From the NCBI RefSeq assembly GCF_000152965.1, contig NZ_CH902583.1:430302-494301 (forward strand): a stretch of 64,000 nt of DNA, given 5' to 3'. The notes under the pieces were generated by a model. The model had not been told where the DNA came from, did not search any database, and saw only the letters and a list, made by a program, of their open reading frames with translations. This DNA is from Roseobacter sp. MED193. Its GTDB lineage: Bacteria > Pseudomonadota > Alphaproteobacteria > Rhodobacterales > Rhodobacteraceae. Within the stretch, counting starts at the first letter, position 1. Every line of letters begins with the position of its first letter. Both the position numbers and the translations under genes were made by a program. Below, piece after piece: positions 26,496-33,002 of the stretch.

Positions 26496-27959
26496 ATGCA
26501 GTCAGTTCCCCCACAATTGGCGACTTCAGCCAACACAGCAGAATCTGGCGCAAGCGATTGGCCCGACGATACAGAGCGATCTGACGCACGCAATCTGCAG
26601 CTCAACCATCTGACACAAATCTCATCTCAGTTGGGCTATGAAATCGTCGATATTGCCGGTTTCCTGGATCAGATCGACCAAAAATCACAGAGCCAACTCT
26701 CTGCACTACAGGAACTCACCAGAGAGGCGGATCAGGTCATCAGCTCAAATGGCCAAGTTCTTGACACCATTGAAACGGTCTCGACCACCACGGAGCAAAC
26801 GCTCCAGTCCGTCCAGACCTCGGTAAAGTTTGTCCGCGATAACAGCGGCCGCAGCCAGGAAGTTGCCGAATGGGTCAACGATCTGGAAGAACGCACAGAT
26901 CAAATTGGCGACACTGTAGATGCTGTGCGCAAAAACAACGAAATGATCACCAATATTGCTGCCCAGGTGAACATCCTCGCCATCAACGCCAAGATTGAAG
27001 CCAGCCGTGCGGGGGATGCGGGGCGTGGATTCGCTGTGGTGGCCGAAGCGATCAATGACCTGTCCAAACGCACCCAAACAGCGGCGCGTGAGATTGGCAG
27101 CAATATTGAGAACCTATCAAACTGGGTCACCCTGTTGCACGACGAAACAGTTGAAATCTCTCGCTCGGCTGAAAAGATCCTAGGCCAGGCACGGGAAACC
27201 GACAGCTCTCTTCTCAGTATCGAAGAAAAAGCCACAGAGGTGAACGCACAGACCGCCAAAATTCTTAGCCAAGCCTCCGTGGTCAAAAACGCCATGAACA
27301 GCTTTGCCCCAAACATCAATGGAATCGGCAAATCGGTTGAGGAAACCACAACCGGCATCCATGACACCCATACCCGGGTCGAAAACCTGATTTCTTCCTC
27401 TGAACAACTTGTTCAAGGCACTGTCGCCCTGGGGGGCAAGTCCACGGACAAACGGTTTATCTCTTATGTGACCGAGCTCAGCCAGAAGGTCGCCGCCATA
27501 TTTGAAGCGGCCCTCGACGCCGGAAAAATCTCTGCCGATGCCCTGTTCGACAAAAAATATCAACTGATCCCTGGCACCAACCCCGCGCAATATACCACTG
27601 GCTTTCTGCCTCTTACGGATGCGGCCCTGCCGCCGCTGCTGGAGGCTGCCTTGGAATTTGATCCACGCGTGGTCTTTTGCGCGGCTATTGATATCAATGG
27701 CTACCTGCCAACCCACAACAAGATCTTTTCTCACCCACAGGGTCCAGATCCCGACTGGAACACCGCCAACTGCCGCAATCGTCGGATTTTTGATGACCGG
27801 GTGGGGCTCAAGGCCGGACGAAATTCTGAACCCTTTTTGATGCAGGTCTATCGTCGCGATATGGGGGCCGGAAACTTTGTGATGATGAAAGATCTGTCGG
27901 TGCCCGTCTTTGTCGGTGGCCGACATTGGGGCGGTATTCGTATGGGGTTCAAGACCTAA
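26496..27959 (+). CDS. Soluble methyl-accepting chemotaxis protein with C-terminal sensor domain
   Basis: This 487-residue protein has no transmembrane span. Residues about 60-300 are a long coiled coil with the MCP hairpin tip ([20 protein letters not shown], then [17 protein letters not shown], about 153-193). The C-terminal 150 residues form a globular domain with [17 protein letters not shown] and [18 protein letters not shown], resembling Cache/PAS-like receptors whose usual place is amino-terminal. It probably senses an internal signal and acts on CheA/CheW. It stands alone; no che genes are nearby. Confidence 0.88.
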
Positions 27960-27980
27960 TCCCCATCGGCCCCTGCCCCC

Positions 27981-28018
27981 AAAAAAAGCCGCCACACATC
28001 CGGGCAGATGGTGGCGGC
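27981..28018 (-). terminator. Strong terminator of the SOS-linked small gene / structured RNA
   Basis: On the minus strand GCCGCCAC (28018-28011) pairs perfectly with GTGGCGGC (27995-27988) and is followed by seven T residues (27987-27981). It is oriented against the chemoreceptor gene and so ends a transcript from the right. Confidence 0.9.
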
Positions 28019-28027
28019 AGGAAATGC

Positions 28028-28140
28028 GTCTTTATGCGGGGTTCAGATGAGCGTTCCGGCTGTTAGGCGCAACCGGCTGGAAAGGTTAGGCGGGGATCCA
28101 ATGACATCGGGATGGATGTCAACGCATCTGACATAAAGAC
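28028..28140 (-). ncRNA. Structured RNA, 3' UTR or small RNA
   Basis: The ends pair over long range: GTCTTTATG (28028-28036) with CATAAAGAC (28132-28140), continued by TCAGATG (28043-28049) with CATCTGA (28125-28131) across a small bulge. Inside is a perfect hairpin TGACATC...GATGTCA at about 28102-28121. Read on the minus strand, the structure is followed 10 bases later by a strong terminator. It could be the 3' UTR of the small membrane gene or a separate small RNA. I could not assign it to a known family. Confidence 0.5.
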
Positions 28141-28209
28141 AGCAGGCAGAAACTAGAAATAGGGTTTCATAAGGCAGGAAAAAGAGGCCGCAGCTTCACG
28201 ACCGCGCGA

Positions 28210-28332
28210 TTACATAAACCCCGGCAGGTGAAGGGCAACAACAAGCATAACAATCAGAGCAGCTGCACCAAGCGCATCCTGTAGCAAAGTGGATTGGGCA
28301 TTGTGCAGGGTTGTCTTCAACTGGGTCATCAT
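28210..28332 (-). CDS. Small single-span membrane protein, predicted SOS-regulated
   Basis: This 40-residue protein starts MMTQLKTTLHNAQSTLLQ, then has one hydrophobic span (ALGAAALIVMLVVALHL, about 20-36) and ends PGFM. A GGAG site lies nine bases before the first ATG. It lies between recG (same strand) and the chemoreceptor (opposite). Five LexA half-sites lie 105-150 bases upstream, and a strong terminator lies downstream. I know no function. Its size, topology and SOS control recall SidA, the 29-residue SOS-induced division inhibitor of Caulobacter, but there is no clear sequence match to rely on. The basic/polar amino end is probably cytosolic. Confidence 0.75.
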   Translation of the reverse strand: MMTQLKTTLHNAQSTLLQDALGAAALIVMLVVALHLPGFM

Positions 28333-28349
28333 CAGGATTGTCTCCACTA

Positions 28350-28393
28350 CTCTCTGTCGGGGTTCAGCATTTCGCTACGCCGCTCTCTGTCGG
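28350..28393 (-). repeat. Duplicated 11-bp element in the leader of the small gene
   Basis: CTCTCTGTCGG occurs exactly at 28350-28360 and 28383-28393 (CCGACAGAGAG on the transcript). Both copies lie between the LexA sites and the start codon, so they would be in the 5' UTR. They may bind a protein or a small RNA. Confidence 0.5.
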
Positions 28394-28437
28394 CCTCTTG
28401 TTGCTTATTTGTTCTCATTTTACGCCGCTGCTGTAAA

Positions 28438-28484
28438 GAACTTTTTAAGAACATTTGCGAACTTTTTAGAACATCAGCAAGAAC
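28438..28484 (-). promoter_or_regulatory. LexA (SOS) box cluster
   Basis: Five GAAC half-sites (GTTC on the minus strand) lie at 28438, 28449, 28459, 28469 and 28481. The first pair is an exact GAAC-N7-GAAC (28438-28452), the alphaproteobacterial LexA consensus; other spacings are 6, 6 and 8. The cluster sits between the recG stop (28503) and the small membrane gene. Confidence 0.75.
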
Positions 28485-28502
28485 ACGGGTCTGCGAAACA
28501 GT

Positions 28503-33002
<4,500 letters not shown>

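Follow-up and report, generated by a model that had tools for sequence, protein, structure and literature searches.

The stretch of DNA analysed here (the window, 64,000 nucleotides of Roseobacter sp. MED193) carries a 40-codon frame next to recG, which an initial annotation proposed to encode a small membrane protein that LexA controls in the Roseobacter group, possibly a division inhibitor resembling SidA of Caulobacter. Is this frame a gene, is it under LexA control, and what might it do? Our analysis indicates that it probably belongs to the DNA-damage response and that the gene has two parts. The second, a structured RNA that lies on the protein gene's own strand, was missed in the initial annotation. 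The features of the locus, in the order in which the small gene is read, are:

30593-28503, minus strand: recG, named from its sequence, the neighbour immediately upstream and outside the unit
28484-28438, no strand assigned: putative operator array of five GAAC half-sites, identified by position, by conservation in relatives and by first rank with a lexA-promoter matrix
28437-28432, minus strand: TTTACA, a likely -35 element abutting the LexA-type box, part of the consensus drawn from 92 of 99 loci
28416-28410, minus strand: GAGAACA, a conserved element downstream of TTTACA that contains a further GAAC half-site, identified by position and fixed spacing
28345-28342, minus strand: GGAG, ribosome-binding site, identified by sequence and position
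28332-28210, minus strand: gene for the 40-residue single-span membrane protein, stop codon included, identified by its frame, homologs, purifying selection and predicted helix
28153-27985, minus strand: conserved structured RNA with a long closing stem, three inner hairpins and the terminator, identified with model R1, pair counts and fold
28018-27981, minus strand: intrinsic terminator hairpin and U run, forming the 3′ end of the RNA, identified by sequence and fold

A predicted membrane microprotein under purifying selection

The 40-codon frame is intact, running on the minus strand from an ATG at 28332 to a stop at 28210-28212 (product MMTQLKTTLHNAQSTLLQDALGAAALIVMLVVALHLPGFM), and the GGAG at 28342-28345 ends 9 nt 5′ of the ATG. 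The sequence bears out the complete frame, ribosome-binding site and single hydrophobic span originally described. We identified homologs in 138 of 198 Rhodobacteraceae genomes, each representing a different genus, with a single match in each (that in G161 contains an internal stop codon). The best match bearing a genus name, from Pseudophaeobacter sp. EL27, is 98% identical. A profile scan of 289 alphaproteobacterial genomes returned 18 matches; four are from Rhodobacteraceae with E values of 5e-12 or better, and the remaining 14 (E 0.006-0.04) were treated as noise. No Pfam or NCBIfam model matches the protein.

The synonymous-substitution signal, whose absence the initial annotation had set against its own proposal, is present: pS is 0.27-0.49 and pN 0.01-0.03 in comparisons with the three nearest named relatives (L072, L071 and L131). 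The median pN/pS is 0.36 over 844 pairs of named relatives, counting only pairs with pS of 0.1 to 0.6. The frame is a real gene under purifying selection, and we rejected a non-coding reading because of the synonymous bias and the conservation of the frame.

The N-terminus of the protein is mostly positive, the Asp at the edge of the membrane never varies, the single span carries no charge, and a Leu-Pro close to the C-terminal end is conserved. Residues were counted in 128 distinct homologs, collected by similarity or by position and 37-42 amino acids long. The Asp (D19) is kept in all 128, G22 in 124, L34 in 126 and P37 in 123, and the 18 positions after D19 are free of charged residues in 127. 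A hydrophobic 17-residue window is predicted in every one, and the N-terminus is net positive in 109, a charge distribution that suggests an N-in topology. The predicted structure of the window's protein is one helix (residues 2-39, mean pLDDT 84.3). In four relatives (G018, G022, G077 and G034; loci L190, L191, L192 and L299) the Leu-Pro is replaced by Leu-Ser-Gly or Leu-Thr-Gly.

A nearly invariant predicted operator and promoter

Between the frame and recG lie five GAAC half-sites, starting on the plus strand at 28438, 28449, 28459, 28469 and 28481 (gaps N7, N6, N6 and N8), as the initial annotation had reported. The first two form an exact LexA-type box at 28438-28452, GAACTTTTTAAGAAC; the reading on the gene strand is GTTCGCAAATGTTCTTAAAAAGTTC. 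The exact GAAC-N7-GAAC pair noted in that annotation is present, but by itself it is within chance: the window holds three such sites against 1.33 expected (18 of 100 shuffles reach three), and the genome holds 114 GTTC-N7-GTTC sites against 135 for a reversed control pattern. Thus, the half-site argument alone is insufficient. In the whole genome of 4.67 Mb the small gene is the one place with the triple GTTC-N6-GTTC-N7-GTTC, a count that is not decisive because the reversed control is likewise found once.

What led us to reject chance clustering of GAAC is that relatives have kept the array. Of 80 named loci, 79 were counted (one was dropped, as its contig ends inside the gene); GTTC-N7-GTTC-TTTAC stands upstream of the small gene in 73, and any GTTC-N7-GTTC in 77. 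The longer motif is also present in 28 of the first 30 family loci, and 92 of 99 loci yield the operator-promoter consensus GTTCnCaAATGTTCTcAaAAAGTTCTTTACa-N10-aAnATGAGAACAAA. GAGAACA follows TTAC at a fixed 16 nt in 86 of the 92, and it is uncertain whether it represents the -10 region or a second operator half-site. In these comparisons the predicted operator-promoter is nearly frozen in evolution.

Three genomes (G015, G125 and G048; loci L196, L186 and L198) have lost GTTC-N7-GTTC and have GAAC-N7-GAAC closer to the start codon of the small gene. This looks like operator turnover. In G015 and G125 the replacement ends in TAGAAC, as at lexA.

Evidence for LexA control

To score the array we used a matrix built only from the lexA promoters of relatives, in which the start was located at 27 of 30 loci and GAAC-N7-GAAC at 26 of the 27 (26 boxes). 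With this matrix the small-gene box ranks first among all window positions on both strands, at 12.4 bits (next 11.7), although it falls below the lexA training boxes, of which the lowest scores 19.3. The best upstream site in the 79 relatives has a median score of 10.7, compared with about 0 downstream, and none of the 79 reaches the second-lowest training score (21.6).

The lexA genes of three genomes (G003, G057 and G048; loci L302, L303 and L304) carry a GAAC-N7-GAAC-N6-GAAC triple, with the layout seen at the small gene. This suggests that LexA operators of the Rhodobacteraceae may typically have half-sites in tandem, spaced 10-11 bp. At the lexA of the window genome itself a box lies about 45 nt 5′ of the start, and the box was found in 22 of the 24 relatives' recA promoters in which the start was located (of 30). 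No exact GAAC-N7-GAAC was found in the stretch examined at the window genome's recA (L040), which instead has GTTTGCTTTGTTC and GAACAAAAGGCAAAC, facing each other. LexA itself was found in 184 of the 198 genomes; the 14 genomes lacking a match include incomplete genomes and some carriers of the small gene.

Putative LexA control of the small gene is well supported by comparison, and LexA would repress it and DNA damage induce it. The original proposal of a LexA-controlled small membrane protein draws its support from the conserved frame, the conserved operator, the first rank with the lexA-promoter matrix and the triples at lexA in three relatives; the lower score of the box relative to lexA boxes counts against it.

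A conserved structured RNA downstream of the small gene

The strong terminator claimed downstream is real, but it lies at 27981-28018, outside the interval 28210-28484 that the initial annotation covered. It is about 190 nt beyond the stop codon, and a conserved folded RNA fills the stretch between. The closing stem of this RNA pairs 28132-28140 with 28028-28036. The window copy scores 90.6 bits with model R1, which was built from 20 aligned sequences, and its single-sequence fold has a z score of -5.83. The model finds 95 of 98 loci at E < 0.001 (20 of these are the training loci), missing L034 (a weak match), L035 (no match) and L077 (a contig end).

Base pairs were counted in 65 of the 78 non-training sources, leaving out the three misses, four low scorers (L017, L102, L129 and L130) and six others that are mostly close copies. 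In an alignment fitted to the structure, and with omissions that favour it, 91.9% of cells pair, compared with 72.8% in shuffles and 36-43% in slid versions. Both sides have changed in 35 of 41 pairs (27.8 in shuffles), none of 500 shuffles reaches any observed pair value, and even the weakest helix pairs in 78.5%. The predicted fold is evolutionarily maintained, as a separate domain. Searches of Rfam gave four matches in the window region 27900-28520, all below gathering scores (best E 1.3), and none in 12 relatives.

The motif CUGYC occurs 3.08 times per RNA, compared with 0.84 in shuffles, and is often unpaired; in the window copy's own loops it has drifted. Several specific pairings of the RNA were considered and rejected. 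Pairing with the start of recA, hinted at by leaders of the window genome, was dropped because just 1 of 24 relatives has the loop complement close to the recA start. Pairing with the start of lexA had a similar hint, and the relatives' leaders showed no common complement when read by eye, uncounted. Across 30 genomes GGGACAGGCAG, the complement of the full 11-nt loop, shows no visible excess over a control. Masking of the message's own start codon was set aside, as the RNA pairs with the start region in 6 of 76 predicted transcripts; in 70 of the 76 the start region is mostly paired locally. The convergent gene at 26496-27959 (plus strand), recognised by eye, is presumably for a protein like soluble methyl-accepting chemotaxis-type signalling proteins; an antisense action on it was rejected because the RNA ends at 27985, outside that gene.

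Protein, operator and RNA travel together

We detected the RNA in 130 of the 198 family genomes, in 110 of them together with the protein. Where both were detected, the RNA lies directly behind the protein on the same strand in 109 of the 110. All 20 genomes with an RNA match only were fetched. In 19 of them the RNA is accompanied by a diverged protein built to the same plan (17 identified by script, and two by eye and then confirmed). The RNA match in G023 looks like a chance hit. GTTC-N7-GTTC is present in 14 of these 20 genomes and GAAC-N7-GAAC in three more (G125, G015 and G048); neither type of box was found in G037, G085 or G023.

From the 28 genomes with a protein match only, 20 were fetched; all 20 have the exact box, and a local search recovered an RNA match at E < 0.001 in 14. 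There was no RNA match in L206 and L212 in the local search, nor in L300 and L035. In some carriers the RNA is, as judged by these searches, missing or too diverged to detect. Three further genomes (G034, G045 and G047) gave neither a protein nor an RNA match in the family scan, but carry an AT-rich triple array. All three encode a diverged protein (two identified by script, one by eye and confirmed) and two also the RNA. Counting the diverged forms as genuine, the protein is present in at least 160 of the 198 genomes.

By co-occurrence, the operator, protein and RNA travel together, and their layout suggests a single transcript for protein and RNA. The end RLISVG typical of the recG neighbour is present at 74 of the 79 named loci; we found no other conserved neighbour in the loci examined.

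Possible functions

We consider it about evenly balanced whether SOS induction yields one transcript that joins a structured 3′ RNA to the frame of a membrane microprotein braking division in the manner of SidA. LexA bound to the GAAC array, which overlaps the promoter, would keep the gene silent, as motif and conservation suggest; DNA damage would remove LexA and release one transcript from the array to the terminator. This transcript would encode the 40-residue membrane protein with its one uncharged span, along which the fixed residues D19, G22, L26, L34 and P37 are consistent with binding to one particular partner in the membrane. If SidA and DidA are a guide, the most likely partner would be the FtsW/I/N division complex, and division would pause during repair. 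The 3′ RNA domain would most likely be a regulatory or protein-binding RNA derived from the 3′ UTR, or would protect and control the mRNA. It is possible, as a more tentative proposal, that the transcript has dual function, with the division-braking microprotein and a new class of trans-acting structured RNA under one LexA operator, evolved as one unit.

The division-brake role would follow two proteins of Caulobacter, SidA and DidA, which act on FtsW/I/N (PMC4211646). SidA of Caulobacter crescentus is SOS-induced, has 29 amino acids and acts on FtsW (PMC4211646). Our protein resembles it, by prediction, in LexA-type control, very short length, one membrane span and alphaproteobacterial origin (PMC4211646), but has 40 amino acids. 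DidA is likewise a small DNA-damage membrane protein acting on the division complex (PMC4211646). Unlike our gene with its LexA-type operator, didA is SOS-independent and induced by DriD. The comparison with SidA as a division inhibitor is an analogy; the profile scan of the 289 alphaproteobacterial genomes gave no sequence link to it. To our knowledge no structured RNA attached to sidA has been described, whereas the small gene here has one.

Other readings fit parts of the same evidence. An SOS-released peptide that depolarises the membrane, as TisB and DinQ of Escherichia coli, would lower the proton-motive force and favour dormancy, with the RNA domain helping to restrain it. TisB and DinQ are single-span peptides under LexA control, and both RNA structure and RNA regulators take part in their expression (PMC8309996). 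A LexA-type operator, one short span and a conserved RNA structure on the same predicted message recall them, as does a start region that in 70 of 76 predicted transcripts pairs mostly with its immediate surroundings. However, peptides of this type have charged or polar residues along the membrane helix, and in TisB four charged ones line a single face (PMC8309996), while 127 of 128 homologs of our protein lack any charge in the 18 positions after D19. The separate 3′ RNA domain is unpaired with the start region in 70 of 76 transcripts and pairs with it in only six. Since the span has no charged face, a TisB-like pore is less likely, and we regard this reading as improbable. We similarly doubt that the RNA is the main effector, released from the 3′ end by cleavage to act in trans as an SOS small RNA or to sponge a protein, and accompanied by the small frame. 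Its strong covariation, the abundant and often unpaired CUGYC (3.08 per RNA versus 0.84) and a terminator with a U run would suit such an RNA, but purifying selection on the protein is clear and the protein persists where the RNA is undetected, the complement of the 11-nt loop is not enriched over the control, and CUGYC has drifted in the window's own loops.

The membrane protein could instead be an SOS adaptor beyond division, acting on a protease, DNA uptake, release of phage or gene-transfer agents, or envelope protection. The same gene and operator facts fit, and the conserved span face names no partner; however, in the loci examined there is no conserved neighbour besides recG (its tail at 74 of 79 loci) and nothing that indicates such a partner, and we consider this reading unlikely. 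Finally, it is very improbable that a regulator other than LexA binds the array. The N6 half-sites 10 bp apart, conserved beside the N7 pair, and a score under that of lexA boxes could point that way, but a matrix derived from lexA alone ranks the box first, the same triple occurs at three lexA genes, and the three genomes with a changed operator (G015, G125 and G048) swap to GAAC-N7-GAAC, ending in TAGAAC as at lexA in G015 and G125.

Novelty and significance

The new element at this locus is the structured 3′ RNA attached to the gene of a predicted SOS membrane microprotein. We found no paper on the small gene or its RNA among open-licence papers. The small gene is absent from the passages covered of a study that predicts LexA sites of Dinoroseobacter shibae (PMC6473078). 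A survey of structured RNAs that includes Rhodobacterales motifs mentions neither recG nor LexA in its main text, and an earlier listing of this RNA in its supplement is possible (PMC8632094). The HRC-28-1 motif of Polynucleobacter in that survey is similar in being a conserved multi-stem RNA with an intrinsic terminator behind a gene, suggested to be located within a 3′ UTR, but it belongs to other organisms and another gene (PMC8632094).

Rhodobacteraceae are common in the sea, yet the literature searched gave no description of how they hold back growth or division under DNA damage. The small gene, with its exceptionally conserved operator, is a concrete candidate for such restraint. If the dual-function reading is true, the RNA would have mRNAs or an RNA-binding protein as its trans targets when this major marine family responds to DNA damage. 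At this locus a folded RNA is passed on together with a presumed SOS effector, and the two lend themselves to simultaneous testing.
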